A DNA stretch of 28,364 bases, taken from a virus. The stretch lies in the IMG/VR virus record IMGVR_UViG_3300025127_000194, positions 1 to 28,364 of that record, one strand, 5' to 3'. The notes beneath the pieces were generated by a model that saw only the letters and a program-made list of their open reading frames with translations, did no database searches and was not told the DNA's origin. Both the position numbers and the translations under genes were made by a program. This document shows, piece after piece, positions 3,131 through 28,364 of this stretch (its first letter is position 1; the number at the start of each line of letters is the position of its first letter).

Positions 3131-3679
3131 TTACGCTATTTGTACGTACTCAATGATGAACGTAAAAGAACCAGCGGTAGTTGCATCAACAGTATTAGTA
3201 ATGTTGCAAAAAATAGTTCTTGCAGCAGAAGTATACTGAACAGAAGCGGGTGCAGTTGTGCCACTTTGGGTTTGTAAAACCAAAGAAGTAGTTGTGACGT
3301 TACCCACTACAACCGTAGTACCACCATCCAAAATCTCATCAGTCACTGCCGCAACAATCTGTGCGCCAGAGCTAGAAGTACCAACCTCATAACCTATGTC
3401 ACCCGTACCAATAACTGGCGAGACATCACAAAAAATCTTGATGTCAGTAATGATTGTGTTTGCGGGCTGCGTAAACTCACCAATAGTCGGGCTGTCACCC
3501 GCCGTGGTGTTGACCGTAACGCCCGTAGCAAAGCCAACGTGCTTTACGTATTTGTTCGTAACAATACCAGTAGACGCAATGTCCACTACATCAGTGAATG
3601 CACCAGTGCTTGCGTTTTTTGAAACAACTTTGAACCCGTTCTCTGATCGGACGGGGCCGTTAAACGTAGTATTAGCCAT
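3131..3679 (-). CDS. Putative virion structural protein, 182 aa
   Basis: Starts MANTTFNGPVRSENGFKVVS with AGGAG six bases before the ATG. The composition is Thr/Val/Ala/Gly-rich with repeated short strands (TTSLVLQTQSGTTAPASVQY), typical of phage surface proteins. It is the first gene after the terminator that follows the major capsid gene, so it may be transcribed by read-through or from its own promoter, which I could not identify with confidence. The N-terminal FNGPVRS(E)NGF pattern recurs in phage head proteins I remember. A decoration or head-fibre role is an inference. Confidence 0.65.
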   Translation of the reverse strand: MANTTFNGPVRSENGFKVVSKNASTGAFTDVVDIASTGIVTNKYVKHVGFATGVTVNTTAGDSPTIGEFTQPANTIITDIKIFCDVSPVIGTGDIGYEVGTSSSGAQIVAAVTDEILDGGTTVVVGNVTTTSLVLQTQSGTTAPASVQYTSAARTIFCNITNTVDATTAGSFTFIIEYVQIA

Positions 3680-3745
3680 TGTAATCTCCTGTCGTGGCTA
3701 GTGTCAGATGCGGGATGCACCTGTCAGGGATGAGATACTTATACA

Positions 3746-11402: not shown

Positions 11403-12033
11403 CGGTGAGGCCAAGCTCGTCGTCTACGTCAAAAGAACTTTCTACGTACTCACCTTCTACCACTTCTTCGTCGGGAGTTATTAGCTTCTCCAGTTTCCCA
11501 CGTAACTTATTACGCAGATCATCTGTGGACTGATGCGTGACCGTTACCTCTGACTTCTCTGCGAACAACCCCACATCAGAAATTTTACCCAGAAGCTCCA
11601 ACGCACGCATACGTATGCGCGGGTCGTCGTTCTCGGACTCTAATAAAAGTTTATTTGTTACGAGGTACCTAATCTGCACTGCACTTTCTGCAACAGAATG
11701 CCCAAACTCTTGCAGTATGTTGTTTGTTAAAACAAGGGAGGCAGGGGTAAGCGCCGCCGCTTTCTTCGCAGTAACTTTGCGAGAAGTCCTATCAGGATCA
11801 TCAGCATACGCAATAGCAATTCGTGCAGCCGTATCTTCATCTTCTGATGTGGGTTCCAAGTCCAATCCGTGTTTGGAAAGCTCAAGCGCAGTATTACATG
11901 CTGCTTCCGCTCGCTCTTTCAGATCCATATTCGGCAAATCGTCAGTAAACGGCACGCCGATTTCGGGTTCGATAGATAAAGGCATAGGCATGAATTGTGT
12001 CGCTGGCTGGTAGCCGTTGGCGAAAATATACAC
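11395..12033 (-). CDS. terS: Terminase small subunit
   Basis: Up to 212 aa. The listed start is a GTG without a clear ribosome site; ATGs at 11991 and 11985 are equally possible. The recognisable part is TAKKAAALTPASLVLTNNIL, followed by DDPRIRMRALELLGKISDVG and LFAEKSEVTVTHQSTDDLR. I know that pattern from small terminase subunits, which recognise the packaging site and regulate the large subunit. The C-terminus is acidic (EEVVEGEYVESSFDVDDELG), as expected for the portal- or TerL-interacting tail. It is the first gene of the leftward operon and overlaps terL. Confidence 0.8.
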   Translation of the reverse strand: MYIFANGYQPATQFMPMPLSIEPEIGVPFTDDLPNMDLKERAEAACNTALELSKHGLDLEPTSEDEDTAARIAIAYADDPDRTSRKVTAKKAAALTPASLVLTNNILQEFGHSVAESAVQIRYLVTNKLLLESENDDPRIRMRALELLGKISDVGLFAEKSEVTVTHQSTDDLRNKLRGKLEKLITPDEEVVEGEYVESSFDVDDELGLTDA

Positions 12034-12064
12034 AAAAAATTTTTTCAGGGGGACTTTTATTTTT

Positions 12065-12192
12065 GGGGTGGGGGGGTTCCTGTGTAGAGGGGGGTGGGGT
12101 ACCGAAACTCAAAAAATTGCTGAAAGTTCGTGCAGATTAGTAATACAGAGAACTGCTAGGAGTCACAAGCTGTGCGCGGGGGGTCGGGGGGG
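12065..12192 (+). other. Two G-tract clusters in the divergent intergenic region
   Basis: The plus strand holds four G-runs at 12065-12068, 12070-12076, 12089-12094 and 12096-12099 (4, 7, 6 and 4 Gs, with 1-, 12- and 1-base spacers). Two more lie at 12178-12183 and 12186-12192. The first cluster satisfies the G3+ four-run pattern of a potential G-quadruplex. The region lies between the leftward operon and the next rightward gene and encodes no credible protein. Confidence 0.6.
12140..12168 (-). promoter_or_regulatory. Candidate leftward late-operon promoter
   Basis: Read on the minus strand, TTGTGA (12168-12163) and TATTAC (12145-12140) are separated by exactly 17 bases. Each matches four of six sigma-70 consensus positions. 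A start near 12133 would give a leader of about 100 nt before terS. It is the best leftward candidate I found, but weak; a late phage promoter may instead need an activator. Confidence 0.35.
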
Positions 12193-12208
12193 TGTGGTGT
12201 TTCGTTAG

Positions 12209-12226
12209 TGTCTAACGTGTTAGACA
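12209..12226. promoter_or_regulatory. Dispersed palindromic operator candidate, site 1
   Basis: TGTCTAACGTGTTAGACA, two perfect 8-base arms around GT. It is followed by ATTGG, as at site 2. It lies 46 bases before the isolated gene at 12273 and on the leader side of the divergent region, so it could control either direction. The preceding G makes a GTG that opens a 31-codon frame, probably fortuitous. Confidence 0.75.
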
Positions 12227-12234
12227 TTGGTATT

Positions 12235-12254
12235 AAATGCCATTTTTTGCATTT
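12235..12254 (+). other. Small hairpin downstream of palindrome site 1
   Basis: AAATGC and GCATTT form a 6-bp stem around an 8-base T-rich loop (CATTTTTT). It stands 8 bases after the palindrome. A different 6-bp stem with a similar loop follows site 2, so stem sequence changes while pairing is kept. Confidence 0.5.
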
Positions 12255-12272
12255 ATCTGGTGACTTGCTACT

Positions 12273-12869
12273 ATGTATTGGTCGCCAGCGATGGCGGCAT
12301 TAACTAAAACTAATAGGAGAAGTACCATCAGTACTTATAACAACAAGCAAGCAATGGCCGCAGTTCGTAAATTTAGCAACGCGGAGGCGCAAGCCAATGA
12401 TGCGGCGCGAGAGTTCGTCGAAAGTGGTGGTAAATCAGTATGGCTCGCCGATAGCGAAGTTCAATTCGCACGGCTGAAAGAGTCGGATCCGACTAACCCA
12501 GTCAAATGGAAGGACTTTCATCAGGCGATTCTACAATCACGCGGCGATCGCGCTTTTATGCTCTACAACAGTGATCCCAAGGCATTGTCCGACGACGACA
12601 AAGCCGAAAGGCGAGCGGTTCAGAAAGGCATGAAACAATACACTTCCCGATTCATCGGGCGAGTGAAGACGATTGAAGCCGCACTAGTGGCGGAGGCGAA
12701 CGGCGAGAAGGTAATACGCAAAACGCGCCCAGTGCTGGAACGGCTGAATGAGCACGCGGATAAAGCGAAAGGCATTCTTGAAAAAGATGCTCAAGCCGAG
12801 GCTCCGCAGATCACCGGCGAGGATCGAGCAGCATGGGCAGCATGGATCGCCGCCAAGCCTAAAGGCTAA
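12273..12869 (+). CDS. Isolated early/accessory protein of unknown function, 198 aa
   Basis: Highly charged, Ala-rich, mostly helical protein: YNNKQAMAAVRKFSNAEAQA, SDPTNPVKWKDFHQAILQSR, DKAERRAVQKGMKQYTSRFI and a C-terminal GEDRAAWAAWIAAKPKG. The ATG at 12273 has a GGTGA about 9 bases upstream; ATG at 12291 is an alternative. I do not recognise a family. It stands alone between the two operons, is preceded by a palindromic operator candidate and followed by its own strong terminator. Its codons look more GC-rich than those of neighbouring genes by eye. That arrangement resembles a moron, an independently expressed accessory gene, but a packaging or replication role is not excluded. Confidence 0.75.
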   Translation: MYWSPAMAALTKTNRRSTISTYNNKQAMAAVRKFSNAEAQANDAAREFVESGGKSVWLADSEVQFARLKESDPTNPVKWKDFHQAILQSRGDRAFMLYNSDPKALSDDDKAERRAVQKGMKQYTSRFIGRVKTIEAALVAEANGEKVIRKTRPVLERLNEHADKAKGILEKDAQAEAPQITGEDRAAWAAWIAAKPKG

Positions 12870-12884
12870 CCACTAACCAATCAG

Positions 12885-12918
12885 CCTCGGTCAGCATTTG
12901 CTGATCGGGGCTTTTTTT
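12885..12918 (+). terminator. Strong rho-independent terminator
   Basis: CCTCGGTCAGC (12885-12895), loop ATTT, GCTGATCGGGG (12900-12910) form an 11-bp stem with two G-U pairs, followed by C and seven T. It starts 16 bases after the stop of the 12273 gene and insulates the downstream control region from its transcription. Confidence 0.92.
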
Positions 12919-12937: not shown

Positions 12938-13027
12938 CAGTTCCTAACGTAGCGTTGCGTGGCGAATCGTAGCGTGGCGAACGTACCATAAGAAGTTACG
13001 AAATCAGTTCCTAGCGTAGCGTTGCGT
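12938..13027. repeat. Direct repeat, two 23-bp copies
   Basis: Positions 12938-12960 and 13005-13027 share 23 bases, CAGTTCCTA(A/G)CGTAGCGT and then TGCGT, with a single difference. Between them GCGTGGCGAA occurs twice (12957-12966 and 12972-12981). The repeats sit just left of palindrome site 2 and the origin-like region. They could be protein-binding iterons or the remains of a duplication. No gene overlaps them. Confidence 0.8.
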
Positions 13028-13044
13028 ATCGCGTACTAGCATAG

Positions 13045-13062
13045 TGTCTAACATGTTAGACA
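13045..13062. promoter_or_regulatory. Dispersed palindromic operator candidate, site 2
   Basis: TGTCTAACATGTTAGACA is a complete 18-base palindrome including the centre AT. It is followed by ATTGG, shared with site 1. It lies between the 23-bp direct repeats and the TGTTCC cluster, far from any gene start, so a role in origin control or in the long leader is possible. Confidence 0.75.
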
Positions 13063-13076
13063 TTGGCAGAAGTTGA

Positions 13077-13094
13077 ATGTGCCTTTTTGCACAT
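13077..13094 (+). other. Small hairpin downstream of palindrome site 2
   Basis: ATGTGC and GCACAT pair over 6 bp around CTTTTT. It is the counterpart of the hairpin after site 1, with different stem bases but kept complementarity and a T-rich loop. It stands 14 bases after the palindrome. Confidence 0.5.
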
Positions 13095-13097
13095 GGG

Positions 13098-13420
13098 TAA
13101 TGTTCCATAATGTTCCCCGTTTGTGCCCCTAATGTTCCCTTTTTTTTAGGCAAAAAGGAACAAATGACAGGTGTCGTACGATTGTATCTGGTGGTATCTG
13201 GCGTTAACTGCATATGCGTTCAAAGGGTTTTCTTTGTAATGTTCCTTTTTTAAGAAAATATATATATACGGTAGGATTTTGAAGGTACACAAAACGCTTT
13301 TGTTCCCTTTCCTCCCTCCCTCGCTGGCAGGTATTCAAATCCTCAAATTTTGGAACAATGGAACATTCGAGGTTTTTCAATGACTTACCCACCACCACTA
13401 CGGAACATTGTGGAACATTA
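13098..13420. other. Candidate replication origin: inverted TGTTCC iterons around an AT-rich core
   Basis: Ten (A/T)TGTTCC motifs occur in about 320 bases. TGTTCC starts at or near 13101, 13111, 13133, 13240 and 13301; the reverse GGAACA at 13157, 13352, 13360, 13402 and 13412. The outer pairs make an inverted repeat: TAATGTTCCATAATGTTCC (13098-13116) against GGAACATTGTGGAACATTA (13402-13420), one mismatch in 19. The midpoint, 13259, falls inside AAAATATATATATA (13255-13268), an easily melted stretch. A pyrimidine run lies at 13299-13320. No credible gene overlaps; two minus-strand frames here lack coding character. Clustered iterons, symmetry and an AT-rich core are what initiator-dependent origins look like. 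A complex operator for the promoter at 13477 is the alternative. Confidence 0.55.
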
Positions 13421-13476
13421 CACCCGTAGCTATCTCACACTACCTCTAAATACCAAAAAGTACGAAACTTAAACAC

Positions 13477-13505
13477 TTGACATCGGGTACCAGATATGAG
13501 ATAAT
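13477..13505 (+). promoter_or_regulatory. Near-consensus sigma-70 promoter for the early operon
   Basis: TTGACA (13477-13482), 17 bases, GATAAT (13500-13505): perfect -35, five of six at -10, optimal spacing. Transcription would start near 13512 and run into the early operon through a leader of about 90 nt that contains palindrome site 3. This is the strongest promoter I see in the window. Confidence 0.85.
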
Positions 13506-13569: not shown

Positions 13570-13587
13570 TGTCTAACACGTTAGACA
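13570..13587. promoter_or_regulatory. Dispersed palindromic operator candidate, site 3
   Basis: TGTCTAACACGTTAGACA, perfect arms, in the leader about 60 bases after the predicted early start point and 17 bases before the first early gene. The flanking A makes an ATG (13569) in frame with that gene, but there is no ribosome site before it, whereas AAAGGAGG precedes the ATG at 13605. Binding here could block elongating polymerase. Confidence 0.75.
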
Positions 13588-14273: not shown

Positions 14274-14592
14274 TTTTGATGAAGTAGCGGTGCATGTGGA
14301 GCGGAACCATCTACAACGCATCGTAACTAGCTATGTGCCAGCAACAGACACCAAGTCGGCAAAGATCAAGGCCATCAACACGATGGGTGAGAAAGGCGAC
14401 GAGGTGTTGGTCGAGGTCAGTGGGAGTATGGATTTGCAGGACTACCACGACTTAGCTGCCATGCGTATGGCTGAGAAACTGGATTGGATACCGAAGTATT
14501 ACTTGCTACGGGCCATAACGAACTGGGGTGTCCTAGACAAAGACGAAATGCCGCTAAGCGGTTTCATTTATTTACTAAGAGAAAGGAGATAG
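14263..14592 (+). CDS. Early protein of unknown function, 109 aa
   Basis: Starts at GTG 14263 with GGAAGGAG upstream, overlapping the zinc-ribbon gene by 11 nt. The protein has an N-terminal FNFDEVAVHVERNHLQRIVT, a possible small beta region (GDEVLVEVSGSMDLQDYHDL), then a helix and aromatic segment (AEKLDWIPKYYLLRAITNWG). No family recognised. It directly precedes the MoxR/VWA module with only 2 bases to the next ATG, so it is co-transcribed and may function with it, but nothing shows this. Confidence 0.7.
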   Translation: MTFNFDEVAVHVERNHLQRIVTSYVPATDTKSAKIKAINTMGEKGDEVLVEVSGSMDLQDYHDLAAMRMAEKLDWIPKYYLLRAITNWGVLDKDEMPLSGFIYLLRERR

Positions 14593-14594
14593 AC

Positions 14595-15557
14595 ATGTCA
14601 GATAGTCTAACATGTTCGACATTACCAGAACTGCCATCGCAGGCTGAGATCAACGTACCGTCCTTGGCAAGTGCTGCCAAGCTGGTCGAACTGAACGTCT
14701 CAGCATGGGACGGTGTGATAACCGACGATGACGTTTCGCAGAAGGTCGCAAGTGACAACAATGCCGATTCTAATGCAGGTACGTACCGCAAGAAGCTATT
14801 TGCCGGTAACAAGTTACTCAAAGAGATACACAGACTCAAAGGCGCTGCCCGTAACCATGTGTATTACCCGAGCACGATGCCATTCAAAGACCGTGGGCCA
14901 CGCATGATCTCGAACGCTGCGTACCCTGACTTCTACACGGAGATCACGTCGGTCAAGCAACAGTTCGATGTCAAGGTCGAAGAGTTCTTGAGGGACTATG
15001 ACCTGTTCGTAGATCAACAGCGCGGTGTGCTGGGTGATCTGTTCAGACCACACGAATATCCAAGCAGAGATGCCATCAGAGACAAGTTCAGTATGCAGAT
15101 ATTCCAGACTCCGTTTACACACGGTGAACACTTTGCCGATGACATCTACGACACGGCACTCGAAGAGACGCGCAAGCAGTACGACAACCACATACGTGAG
15201 AACTACGTAAACGGTATGAACAAGATACTGGGCGAGCTGCGTGGGTACTTGGAGAACATGGTCGAGAAGCTGACCGACGAGGAAGACGATTACGGTTTGT
15301 ATATCAGTGACTCTTACAAAAACAGTAAGAACAAGATATTCCGTGACACTCTTGTGCCGAATGTACTCAAGGCCGTGAAACTTGTTAAGGCGTGTAACCT
15401 TGTTGGTGATACGCGGATCTCAGCACTTTGTGACCGGCTGGAGAATGATCTGTCGCGGGTCACACCCGAAGCACTCAGGGACGATCAGTTCTTGAGAGCG
15501 CAAACCAAATCCATGACACAAAACGTCATTGATAACCTTCCATCACTGGAAATTTGA
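14595..15557 (+). CDS. DUF3150-like protein of the MoxR/VWA module
   Basis: 320 aa from ATG 14595 with GAAAGGAG upstream. It is largely helical: VSQKVASDNNADSNAGTYRK near 50-70, then TYRKKLFAGNKLLKEIHRLK, a long middle with DFYTEITSVKQQFDVKVEEF and a second helical half (NHIRENYVNGMNKILGELRG). Length, helical content and position immediately before a MoxR-type ATPase and a VWA protein recall the DUF3150 family found in such phage clusters; this is memory, not a search. It may be an adaptor or substrate for the ATPase. Codons 4-9 carry the degraded palindrome site 5. Confidence 0.7.
   Translation: MSDSLTCSTLPELPSQAEINVPSLASAAKLVELNVSAWDGVITDDDVSQKVASDNNADSNAGTYRKKLFAGNKLLKEIHRLKGAARNHVYYPSTMPFKDRGPRMISNAAYPDFYTEITSVKQQFDVKVEEFLRDYDLFVDQQRGVLGDLFRPHEYPSRDAIRDKFSMQIFQTPFTHGEHFADDIYDTALEETRKQYDNHIRENYVNGMNKILGELRGYLENMVEKLTDEEDDYGLYISDSYKNSKNKIFRDTLVPNVLKAVKLVKACNLVGDTRISALCDRLENDLSRVTPEALRDDQFLRAQTKSMTQNVIDNLPSLEI
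14604..14621. promoter_or_regulatory. Degraded copy of the palindrome, site 5
   Basis: AGTCTAACATGTTCGACA differs from TGTCTAACATGTTAGACA at two bases. It lies within the first codons of the DUF3150-like gene. It may be a weak operator or a decaying one. Confidence 0.5.
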
Positions 15558-15579
15558 TAACAAAACTAAGGAGACCATT

Positions 15580-16692
15580 ATGAGTTTAGCTCAAGATATG
15601 TACGCCGTTTCACTAGAACAAGGCGTAGACGCAATCGCTGCAACAGGCAGAGAAGGAGACGGTGGCATTGTCTACCTTGCCGAGGGCCATATGGGTACGG
15701 GCAAGACTTCGATGCTCAAGATGCTGGCTAAGAAGTTCCCGAAGAACAAGGCGATCTTGTTCGACTGCACCACCAAGGACTTGGGTGATCTGATGATCCC
15801 CAACATCAAGCTCAACAACGAAGTGTCATACGTTAACTTCGCAACAAACGAAGAGCTTGGCTTGCACCTCGACGGGCCAGTCACTCTGTGTCTTGACGAG
15901 TACGGCAAGTCAAACCCATCAGTCAAGCTGGCGCTGCTCGGTGCGATGCAAGAGCGGATGTTTGCAGGTAGGAAGTTACATCCTGACTCAATCATCTTTG
16001 CGACGACTAATCTGGGTGCCGAGAAGGTCGGTGACTTGTTACCACCACATGCGTGTAATCGGATTGTCCGAATGCGGATACGTAAGCCAGACCATATGGA
16101 GTGGGTTGCGTGGGGTGTCGAGAACGGCATTGACCACACTGTACTTGGCTGGGCCAAGGAGACCCCGCAGTTGTTCCAGTCCTTCGAGGAAGTGCAAGAC
16201 CCTAACGACAATCAGTACATCTTCCACCCCAAGGCGAAAGAACGTACATCGTTTGTCACACCGCGCTCACTGGAGAAGGCGAGTCACATCGTCAAGAAAC
16301 GTGAGGAACTGGATAGCTTTGTCATAACAAGTTTATTGACAGGGATCATCGGTGACCGTGGTGCACAGGATCTGGCGGCGTTCGTCAAACTGGCTAACGA
16401 TCTGCCATCACTGGAGTCAATCAAACAGGATCCAGAAGGTGCGCTAGTGCCAACGACTCCATCGGGCACTTGCATGGTGGTGTATCGAACACTGGGTTCC
16501 ATCGAAAGATCTTGGACTCCGGCATGGTTCACATACATGAAGCGTCTTGACAAAGAAGCACAAGGTTACTTCATCAATGGGGTTCGAGATAAGAACTACG
16601 ACGAAAAGCGCCGAGAGATCGTTGTGCAGGATGCCGGTTACGGTGAATGGTGCAGCAATAACTCTTGGATGTTCACAGCCGATAAGGTGTAA
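15580..16692 (+). CDS. MoxR/CobS-like AAA+ ATPase
   Basis: 370 aa from the ATG at 15580, chosen for AAGGAG upstream; the frame extends back to 15529. Walker A is GHMGTGKT at 36-43, Walker B LCLDEYGK at about 103-110 (D106, E107), and sensor 1 is IIFATTN at 138-144 with N144. An Arg after the LPPHACNR segment (about R161) could serve as the arginine finger. These mark a MoxR/CobS-type AAA+ ATPase, which forms rings that remodel or load metal into a partner, usually together with a VWA protein. Exactly such a partner is encoded next door. Target unknown. Confidence 0.85.
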   Translation: MSLAQDMYAVSLEQGVDAIAATGREGDGGIVYLAEGHMGTGKTSMLKMLAKKFPKNKAILFDCTTKDLGDLMIPNIKLNNEVSYVNFATNEELGLHLDGPVTLCLDEYGKSNPSVKLALLGAMQERMFAGRKLHPDSIIFATTNLGAEKVGDLLPPHACNRIVRMRIRKPDHMEWVAWGVENGIDHTVLGWAKETPQLFQSFEEVQDPNDNQYIFHPKAKERTSFVTPRSLEKASHIVKKREELDSFVITSLLTGIIGDRGAQDLAAFVKLANDLPSLESIKQDPEGALVPTTPSGTCMVVYRTLGSIERSWTPAWFTYMKRLDKEAQGYFINGVRDKNYDEKRREIVVQDAGYGEWCSNNSWMFTADKV

Positions 16693-16701
16693 GGAGATAA
16701 C

Positions 16702-18033
16702 ATGTTACTAGCAATAAAGATAACGGAGGAGCAACGGCTCCAGAAGTGTGTCGTAGATATTATGCGACACCCGCGCTACATGTGGTCAGCTGGTGTGCTG
16801 ATGCTGGGCAAGCTGGAGGTTGTCGAAGACATACCCACGGCTCGCACCAATGGCGTCGATGTGCAGTTTGGACGTGCGTTCATACAGTCATTAACTGATG
16901 CACAGTTACGGTTTGTGCTACTGCATGAGCTGTATCACAAGATATACAAACACCTCACCACATGGCGGTGGATGTATGACAAGGATGCAGAACTGGCTAA
17001 TGCGTCTTGCGACTTCAACATCAACGGCAAGCTGGTGGACGAAAACAAAAAGCCAGACTATCGGATCAACGGCAGGATGGAGCAGTTCGCTACCATGCCC
17101 ACCAATGATAACGGTGAACGGATAGGTTTGTTTGACGAGAAGTACAGAGTCAAAGATGGCTGGCTGGATTCCTCTGCTATCTTCAAACGGCTATATGAAG
17201 AGCGCCGTGGGGGTACGGGTACAGGTACAGGTAAAGGTGCTGGCGGTAACGGTACAGCCCCCGATGAAAATGTTGTGGTGGGCAGAGGTGTCCCAACAAA
17301 TGGTCAACCTAGTAACGAGTTACCACAAGGCTTTGACGAGCACGACTGGGACGGCGCACAAGAAGTACCCGCAGACGAACAGAAAAAGAATGCGCGTGAG
17401 ATTGACGAAGCATTACGTCAGGGCGCTATGGCGGCAGGCAAGATGGGGTCAGGTGGTAACAGGTCACTCGAAGAACTACTTGCACCACAGATAGACTGGC
17501 AAGAAGTGATGAGAGCGTTCGTCAACGATGTGTGCAGGGGCAACCACTTCTCAACATGGAAGAGGCCCAACCGCAGGTACATCGGCGCTAACATCTTCAT
17601 GCCCAGTGGTATATCAGAGACCGTTGAAGATCTGGTGTGCAACATCGACACATCCCTGTCGATACGGCAGTGGCACATTACCTTGTTCTTATCAGAGCTA
17701 GCCGACTTGTGCGAAACAGTCAGGCCGAATCGGGTTCGGCTGTTGTACTGGGACACTCAAGTTTGTCGTGAAGAGATCTACGAAGGTGAAGAAATAGATA
17801 GCATCCGCACGTCAACAAAGCCAGAGGGTGGCGGTGGCACAAGGATAAGCTGTGTAACTAATTACTACAAAGAGCATGACATCAGGCCAACCGCGTCCAT
17901 CGTCTTTACAGACGGTTACTTGGGCGGTGAATGGGGTGATTGGGATACACCGCTACTGTGGTGCTTACTCAACAACAAAGCTGCCAAGCCACCCATCGGC
18001 AGTTACGTACACATTGATGAGAACAAACTTTGA
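16702..18033 (+). CDS. Metallopeptidase-like VWA protein (DUF2201-type), MoxR partner
   Basis: 443 aa, AAGGAG before the ATG. The N-terminal domain has HELYH at 75-79, a HExxH zinc motif, followed by H84 and CDFNIN near 103-108, typical of the putative metallopeptidase domain paired with VWA. A low-complexity Gly/Thr linker lies at about 169-183. The C-terminal VWA-like domain carries D316-T-S-L-S320 (DxSxS), T380 after GGGG, and D404 in FTDGY, which together make a complete MIDAS metal site. MoxR ATPases work with VWA proteins as in RavA-ViaA, CobS-CobT and NorQ-NorD. The 9-bp gap to the ATPase indicates joint expression. Confidence 0.85.
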   Translation: MLLAIKITEEQRLQKCVVDIMRHPRYMWSAGVLMLGKLEVVEDIPTARTNGVDVQFGRAFIQSLTDAQLRFVLLHELYHKIYKHLTTWRWMYDKDAELANASCDFNINGKLVDENKKPDYRINGRMEQFATMPTNDNGERIGLFDEKYRVKDGWLDSSAIFKRLYEERRGGTGTGTGKGAGGNGTAPDENVVVGRGVPTNGQPSNELPQGFDEHDWDGAQEVPADEQKKNAREIDEALRQGAMAAGKMGSGGNRSLEELLAPQIDWQEVMRAFVNDVCRGNHFSTWKRPNRRYIGANIFMPSGISETVEDLVCNIDTSLSIRQWHITLFLSELADLCETVRPNRVRLLYWDTQVCREEIYEGEEIDSIRTSTKPEGGGGTRISCVTNYYKEHDIRPTASIVFTDGYLGGEWGDWDTPLLWCLLNNKAAKPPIGSYVHIDENKL

Positions 18034-25661: not shown

Positions 25662-26075
25662 ATGGATACGAGCATTGAAGGCAGCACTCTGCCTATAGAT
25701 AAGTTAACTAAGGTTTTCTTCAAGATAAAAGAAAAGCGCGAAACATTGAAAGCAGCTTTTGACTCTGAAGACCGTGAACTGGAAGCGAAACAAACTAAAA
25801 TTAAGGCTGTTCTTTTAGATCACTTGAAGGCCACAGGCCAAAAGAGTGGTAAGACTGAAGCAGGCACGTTTTATCGCTCAGTGAAACAACGGTACTGGAC
25901 AAACGATTGGGAGTCCATGCACAAATTCGTACTAGAAGAACAAGTGCCAGAGTTTTTTGAAAAGCGTCTGCATCAAGGTGCCGTGAAACAGTTTCTTGAA
26001 GACAACCCAGATAAGTTACCCAAAGGACTAAACGTAGATTCGGAGTACGTCCTTACGATGAGGAAGTCTAAATGA
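25662..26075 (+). CDS. Conserved early phage protein, coiled-coil N-terminus
   Basis: 137 aa from the third in-frame ATG (25662), chosen because GGGGA lies 5 bases upstream; 25650 and 25656 are alternatives. A charged helix (FKIKEKRETLKAAFDSEDRE; LEAKQTKIKAVLLDHLKATG) is followed by GTFYRSVKQRYWTNDWESMH and FFEKRLHQGAVKQFLEDNPD. The layout of coiled coil then RYWxxDWE then EKRLxxGxVKxFLE is one I remember from many marine phages, where it is sometimes compared with Gp157- or Gam-like proteins. A recombination accessory role is a guess. Confidence 0.7.
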   Translation: MDTSIEGSTLPIDKLTKVFFKIKEKRETLKAAFDSEDRELEAKQTKIKAVLLDHLKATGQKSGKTEAGTFYRSVKQRYWTNDWESMHKFVLEEQVPEFFEKRLHQGAVKQFLEDNPDKLPKGLNVDSEYVLTMRKSK

Positions 26076-26317
26076 ATACACTGGTGCCAATCGAAGACGT
26101 AGCAAAGCATTTTAGCGTGAGTCTATCCACGGTTCGTAAATGGGCGCGTGATGGAGTCATACCAGAAAATATGTATGTGAAAATAGGACATACCCAGCGG
26201 TTTGACCTAGATCGTGTGGCAGATGCTTTGATGCGGTACAAAGAAAAAAGCTCATCGGAAACCTACGAAGTAGCGTATGTGGAAGGTGGTTTTGGTGATG
26301 TTGATGACGACATCTAA
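26072..26317 (+). CDS. Small helix-turn-helix protein (MerR/excisionase-like)
   Basis: 81 aa, start in an ATGA overlap. VPIEDVAKHFSVSLSTVRKW then ARDGVIPENMY is a clear HTH of the MerR/excisionase type (HTH about residues 7-31) with a wing-like IGHTQRFDLDRVADALMRY. The acidic tail GGFGDVDDDI could contact partners. No integrase is in the window, so an excisionase role is unsupported. It is the only small dedicated DNA-binding protein in the early operon and thus a candidate for binding the dispersed palindrome, though MerR-type HTHs often bind other site types. Confidence 0.8.
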   Translation: MNTLVPIEDVAKHFSVSLSTVRKWARDGVIPENMYVKIGHTQRFDLDRVADALMRYKEKSSSETYEVAYVEGGFGDVDDDI

Positions 26318-27822: not shown

Positions 27823-28364
27823 ATGGATACAAGAATTTTCTTGCGGAAGATTCTGCCCAGCCAAGGAGTATACGTTCTCTGGTGCAACAACACAGAACTT
27901 AAAAGACACACACGAACACTGTCATTTGAGGATATAGATGAGTTAGCAGCGCAGGCAACGGGATACGACGATAACGGTTGGGACGCTTATTTCGCGTTGA
28001 GTGCTTTCAAGGAAGAAGGCACTCGTAAGGCAACAGATGCTTCACATATCAAAGCTCTGTTCCTTGACATTGATGTGGGGGAGGACAAACCACACACTAG
28101 CAAGCAACACGCACTGCAAGAGCTAAAGCGTTTTTGTAGCGTGTTAGACCTACCTAAACCGATGCTTTTGGACTCAGGTGGTGGGATACACACCTACTGG
28201 GCATTTACGGAAGACGTAAACATAGCGGACTGGAAGCCGGTAGCTGAGAAGTTCAAGGCTTTATGCGCCGAACACAAGTTTCTCATAGATACAGCAGTGC
28301 CTGCGGATGCAGCTAGAGTGCTACGCATATTAGGTACGCACAATTACAAGTTCGATACCCCCGT
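27823..28364 (+). CDS. Archaeo-eukaryotic-type primase (PrimPol), truncated at window edge
   Basis: 180 codons are present and open at the right edge. ATG 27823 has only a weak ribosome site (GGGTGCA). Motif I is LFLDIDVGED near residue 85-92 (DxD), motif II is SGGGIHTYWAF near 130-139 (SxH), and motif III is DTAVPADAARVLRILGTHN near 155-173 (the metal-binding Asp and the conserved R-x-LR-x-x-GTxN). These are the AEP primase hallmarks. Such phage enzymes often continue into a helicase domain, which would be outside the window. It primes the phage polymerase. An operator candidate and a two-state hairpin precede it. Confidence 0.85.
   Translation, partial: MDTRIFLRKILPSQGVYVLWCNNTELKRHTRTLSFEDIDELAAQATGYDDNGWDAYFALSAFKEEGTRKATDASHIKALFLDIDVGEDKPHTSKQHALQELKRFCSVLDLPKPMLLDSGGGIHTYWAFTEDVNIADWKPVAEKFKALCAEHKFLIDTAVPADAARVLRILGTHNYKFDTP

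Follow-up and report, generated by a model that had tools for sequence, protein, structure and literature searches.

The locus at positions 13,098 to 13,420 raises the question of what function is served by a dense cluster of short repeats arranged around an AT-rich stretch in a phage genome. The DNA analysed here, referred to as the window, is an IMG/VR virus record of 28,364 bases and represents a fragment of a phage. Its terminase is 43-48% identical to the terminases of HTVC027P, HTVC023P, 023Pt_psg01 and DSL-LC04, and a search of annotated phages at the DNA level with the region gave no match. Close relatives (terL 83-95%) are found in IMG/VR, some of them as near-complete contigs of 57-62 kb in which the gene order is unchanged. 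Judged from its sequence, the array is very probably the replication origin of this phage. It had been proposed as a candidate origin in an initial annotation of the window, and this proposal is supported by the layout and melting core found in 69 arrays and by the Cch/SaPI-Rep type helicase encoded in the operon.

The sequence WTGTTCC is found exactly 10 times between 13100 and 13418 and just 5 more times across the rest of the 28-kb window. Local Markov simulations (n=300) gave a maximum of 2 sites per 320-bp stretch, and the ten (A/T)TGTTCC motifs that had been reported within about 320 bases are borne out. Short specific repeats clustered beyond chance, one of the characteristics of iteron origins, are thus present. 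In its fuller form the iteron is the 9-bp sequence TAATGTTCC. The left part of the array comprises an outer doublet, TAATGTTCC-A-TAATGTTCC (13098-13116, plus strand), a single iteron TAATGTTCC (13130-13138, plus) and an inverted iteron TTGTTCC (13157-13163, minus), whose slot is filled in 57 of the 69 arrays. These are followed by two GTATCTG repeats (GTGGTATCT, 13184-13200, plus), moderately conserved in the gap between the left iterons and the core, and by a central iteron TAATGTTCC (13237-13245, plus) that lies flush against the core. To the right are an iteron TTGTTCC (13300-13306, plus), a pair of minus-strand iterons (13352-13358 and 13360-13366), a conserved non-iteron block, TCAATGACTTACCCACC (13377-13393; family consensus TATCAAgGACTTACacaCC in the alignment of relatives), and an outer doublet (13402-13420) that reads TAATGTTCC-A-CAATGTTCC on the minus strand and repeats the left doublet in inverted form, apart from one mismatch. 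Taken as 13097-13116 and 13402-13421, the outer doublets form a 20-nt inverted repeat that is 95% complementary (19/20 nt), in agreement with the 19-bp repeat with a single mismatch described earlier. The alignment of relatives also reveals a degenerate leftmost slot, AATGTGCC (13076-13083, plus; family consensus AATGTTC), and with this eleventh slot the array amounts to about 11 sites spanning about 345 bp.

The AT core, TTTTTTAAGAAAATATATATATA (13246-13268), is the predicted unwinding element by duplex stability. Within the window, duplex stability over 40 bp is lowest at 13228-13267, and the midpoint of the array, 13259, does lie inside the AT-rich core as had been claimed, within AAAATATATATATA. 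A further characteristic of iteron origins, an adjoining AT-rich DNA-unwinding element, is therefore present as predicted from duplex stability. When each locus is scanned over its full length, the weakest 40-bp segment falls within the array in 65 of the 69, against 2.2 expected by length alone, although part of this excess would be expected of any intergenic region because promoter regions are generally AT-rich.

The array had been placed at the point where two operons diverge, which proved incorrect. The minus-strand terS gene has its start at 12033, and the divergence from the terS-terL operon lies at 12034-12272, while a plus-strand gene (12273-12869) and a terminator (12883-12912) separate terS from the array. 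The intervening gene encodes a fast-evolving, all-helical protein with homologues in 39 of the genomes searched and a KRYWQQQIGAR-like motif common to relatives. It was considered as the initiator and rejected, its model being all-helical with no known fold match. The array lies directly upstream of the early promoter, a sigma-70 type sequence, TTGACA-17-GATAAT (13477-13505, plus), that serves the early/replication operon and is kept in relatives. On the left lies a conserved element with the consensus TGATACCAGTTcttagaGTAGCGTTGaGCC (13000-13028, plus), of which the window has a second copy from 12938. The flanking direct repeats, first given as 23 bp, are real and measure 36 nt at 12938 and 13005, with 81% identity. 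The element CAGTT-N6-GTAGCGTTG adjoins the array and is duplicated in the window (12938-12973 and 13005-13040); a similar CAGTT-type element is visible in the alignment of most relatives, but a strict pattern places it beside only 19 of the 69 arrays. The reported pyrimidine tract also exists, at about 13306-13322, and is not conserved in the alignment of relatives. A search of Rfam returned no RNA at the array. Elsewhere in the window, Rfam gives a match to Mu-gpT-DE RNA (RF03012, 68.6 bits) at 3677-3729 on the minus strand, adjoining the predicted capsid gene.

The operator palindrome noted in the flanks is likewise real, and the copies at 13045 and 13570 are two of 7-8 dispersed copies. These two putative operators are TGTCTAACATGTTAGACA (13045-13062) on the left and TGTCTAACACGTTAGACA (13570-13587) on the right. 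The 18-bp palindrome, TGTCTAACRYGTTAGACA, is located in early-region gaps of the window at 12209, 13045, 13570, 14080, 18036, 19330 and 27781. Most relatives checked possess a multi-copy palindrome of their own with a different sequence, for example GTTCTAACATGTTAGAAC in G001, GATAAGTN4ACTTATC in G016 and TTTACGGAATTCCGTAAA in L184, and none was detected in G008. These palindromes may constitute a lineage-specific set of dispersed operators resembling stoperators.

Arrays were collected from terL relatives and by two further searches with the MoxR-like gene. The search for the iteron in related phages, recommended in the initial annotation, yielded 69 distinct arrays (that of the window included), all in a matching gene neighbourhood and all sharing a layout that is spelled differently. 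In this layout, left iterons, mostly plus-strand TAATGTTC, are followed by the melting core, by right iterons that are mostly on the minus strand, and then by the sigma-70 promoter. In the alignment, the left element and the left iterons come first, then a single inverted iteron and a central iteron that adjoins a TTTTTTaAAAAATATA core; two inverted pairs on the right and the promoter complete the order. Eleven slots are recognized, each filled in 37-63 of the 69 arrays, and their geometry is fixed. With the least stable point of each locus taken as the reference, there are 269 plus and 49 minus sites to the left, and 78 plus and 223 minus sites to the right; both flanks of the core carry two or more sites in 65 of the 69 arrays. 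Among the array-bearing relatives counted, no other 400-bp stretch of a record has as many AATGT sites as its array, the margin being 3 to 12 sites and wide in most. The array and the next-best stretch have 12 and 3 copies, respectively, in G001 and 16 and 4 in G015, with narrow margins in G012 (7 and 4) and G017 (11 and 8), the five-base core AATGT being unspecific.

No such AATGT array was found in the first 50 kb of each of the distant relatives HTVC027P, HTVC023P, 023Pt_psg01 and DSL-LC04. In the close relative G029, the interval from terS to the early gene that follows (47034-48407, equal to L106 7034-8407) contains no array; the contig ends nearby, and the array may have been moved or lost. 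A contig search with the core pattern for arrays outside this phage group gave chance-like matches, and the array-bearing viral matches were the same phages. ACGGCTA repeats in the related phage L178 were rejected as iterons because they are in-frame coding repeats; they belong to a long tandem stretch (3160-3646) that precedes the MoxR gene, and no iteron array was observed there.

The iteron core AATGTT is mostly kept among these phages, while the bases that follow vary by genome (CC, CG, CT, AC or TC), and one lineage carries AATGTCC. Identity of the variable triplet is 0.41 within an array, 0.27 for the same slot across arrays and 0.20 otherwise; shuffling triplets within slots, which leaves genome kinship in place, gives at most 0.21. 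The final iteron bases thus change together within a genome, and the simplest reading is that they are recognized by a phage-encoded, sequence-specific protein. Mantel correlations with iteron-type distance are r -0.11 for TerS and -0.23 for TerL, compared with 0.34-0.51 for g14589, 0.33-0.38 for a helix-turn-helix (HTH) protein and 0.25-0.31 for the primase-helicase, whose winged helix shows no covariation with the type of iteron (r 0.13, p 0.20). Covariation was discarded as a pointer to the iteron reader: early genes reach r 0.3-0.5, but several unrelated neighbours do likewise. Tip-level parsimony on neighbour-joining trees, in which TerS is associated with iteron type as much as g14589 and the early genes, was discarded for the same use, as it did not separate the candidates.

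The operon to the right of the array encodes a family A DNA polymerase, a PD-(D/E)XK exonuclease, a SNF2-type helicase, a gp2.5-like ssDNA-binding protein and, last, a primase-helicase, the candidate initiator, of which the window contains the first 180 amino acids (27823-28362, plus) before it is cut by the window end. In relatives this is a single protein of about 950 amino acids that combines a primase-like N-terminus with a Cch/SaPI-Rep type helicase. It contains DUF927 (E 2.8e-24) and a weak match to a primase-polymerase domain, and it has PHROG matches to phage primases. Sequence comparison relates it to two solved structures, 5dgk (SCCmec Cch) and 8tch (SaPIBov1 Rep). A structure model of residues 380-964 from a relative (mean pLDDT 76.5) matches 5dgk with Z 27.3 over 475 residues at an rmsd of 12.7 A and 8tch with Z 23.7 at 13.4 A, values so high that the domain arrangement is poorly matched even if the domains match; the next-best structural match has Z 11.6. 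The C-terminal end of the helicase is predicted to be winged-helix-like (strand-strand-helix-helix-strand-strand). In SaPI Rep helicases the C-terminal domain is the part that reads the iterons, and SaPIBov1 Rep and Cch (DUF927) are relatives (PMC7581432). The most likely initiator, and the putative iteron reader, is the primase-helicase, with its AEP-like N-terminus and DUF927. An alternative candidate reader is a conserved 81-aa HTH_17/excisionase-like protein (26072-26317, plus). The window also contains, in a row at 14589-18033, DUF3150-like, MoxR-like ATPase and VWA/DUF2201 metallopeptidase-like genes, which most relatives keep.

In the proposed mechanism, a phage-encoded initiator would bind the roughly eleven 9-bp iterons, which form two facing groups flanking the AT core. 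The initiator would then melt the core and load the helicase, and replication would start there and probably proceed in both directions. Cumulative GC skew, which had been put forward as a whole-genome check, does not bear on this. Its minimum in the window is at 11958, at the flip in gene direction and 1.3 kb from the array, and not at 13259. The sign of the skew tracks gene strand in five near-complete relatives, and in near-complete relatives gene strand and replication direction are confounded, so that GC skew speaks neither for nor against an origin and was rejected as proof of one.

The location of the candidate initiator gene, 14 kb from the array and unlike that in PICIs, counts against an origin, as do the winged helix that fails to covary with the iterons and the array-less stretches read in the distant relatives, and other functions of the array have to be weighed. 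The array could be a multi-site operator, whose iterons are coated as a filament by a phage regulator controlling early transcription, with the AT stretch as part of the promoter region. The conserved sigma-70 promoter that follows the array, the two palindromic operators that flank it and the correlation of the excisionase-like HTH protein with iteron type (r 0.33) are consistent with such an operator. Yet a near-consensus promoter would not need about 11 sites over 345 bp on both sides of the core, facing symmetry about the weakest duplex is unnecessary for regulation, and the separate dispersed palindromes already look like transcription operators; an operator is accordingly considered improbable.

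That the array is a packaging (pac) site for the small terminase subunit, TerS, is rated as very unlikely. Such a site would suit the positions of terS and terL, whose starts in the window lie 1.1-1.7 kb left of the array, with a similar placement in relatives, and the contig ends of the near-complete relatives, scattered over the map, fit headful packaging. The tip-level association of TerS with iteron type also equals that of the early genes on the neighbour-joining trees, whereas the distances of TerS and TerL lack the correlation that in early genes reaches r values of up to 0.49, and covariation weakly disfavours a TerS site. A melting core and a symmetric array of about 345 bp are not known as features of pac sites. 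Many short sites in conserved phase can serve partition complexes, and the array might in principle be a centromere-like or other nucleoprotein site involved in partition, the phage nucleoid or recombination. This is the least probable of the alternatives and hardly to be expected: neither a partition ATPase nor a recombinase was found among the window genes searched, a set that includes only a minority of the late-region proteins, and a single array with a melting core beside an early promoter fits initiation better.

As a replication origin, the array can be compared with several known systems. In PICI origins an AT-rich region is always flanked by two sets of iterons (PMC6092414), and the array likewise has two sets of short iterons on either side of its predicted melting region. 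The likeness to the PICI/SaPI pri-rep-ori extends to the initiator-helicase, which belongs to the SaPI Rep/Cch family by sequence and predicted structure in relatives, the window providing its first 180 residues. The differences are that the present replicon is a phage of about 60 kb with its own polymerase and not a satellite; that primase and Rep are fused into about 950 amino acids, whereas pri and rep are separate in PICIs; that the array lies at 13098-13420 and the rep-like gene begins at 27823, whereas the PICI ori is directly downstream of rep; and that the origin is upstream of the early promoter. The array would work like a PICI/SaPI origin and yet not be a member of that class, because of the gene fusion and the distance to the initiator gene. 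SCCmec Cch, a self-loading helicase, provides the best structural match of the phage helicase (5dgk) and shares DUF927, but it has no fused primase; the comparison with it is one of helicases. In phage P4, alpha unites the initiating helicase and the primase in one protein (PMC7145576). The fused protein described here would work alike, as a functional analogy to P4 alpha/ori (type I iterons). The P4 ori, like the array, has short iterons in both orientations, with an iteron sequence that is not that of the array. Iteron plasmid origins of the RepA/TrfA type and lambda ori also combine iterons with an AT-rich unwinding region; there the iterons usually lie to one side of that region, whereas the array has them on both. 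No initiator of the RepA, TrfA or lambda type families was found among the genes searched. The best reading of the array is that of an origin of PICI-like plan in a phage.

These results provide a probable replication origin and a predicted initiator for a group of phages that is known here for the most part through metagenomes. The origin plan has so far been described as common to PICIs and to no other known bacterial replicon (PMC6092414), and it is now placed in a phage of about 60 kb with a fused primase-Rep protein. It is conceivable, though rather doubtful, that the arrays define replicon specificity groups comparable to plasmid incompatibility groups, in which the iteron set drifts together with its initiator and diversity is maintained because co-infecting phages compete or because satellites would exploit the origin. 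If so, the PICI-type origin plan would be widespread in lytic-type phages and could have given rise to PICI replicons. The bases read by the initiator become directly testable, since dozens of natural variants of one origin are available.
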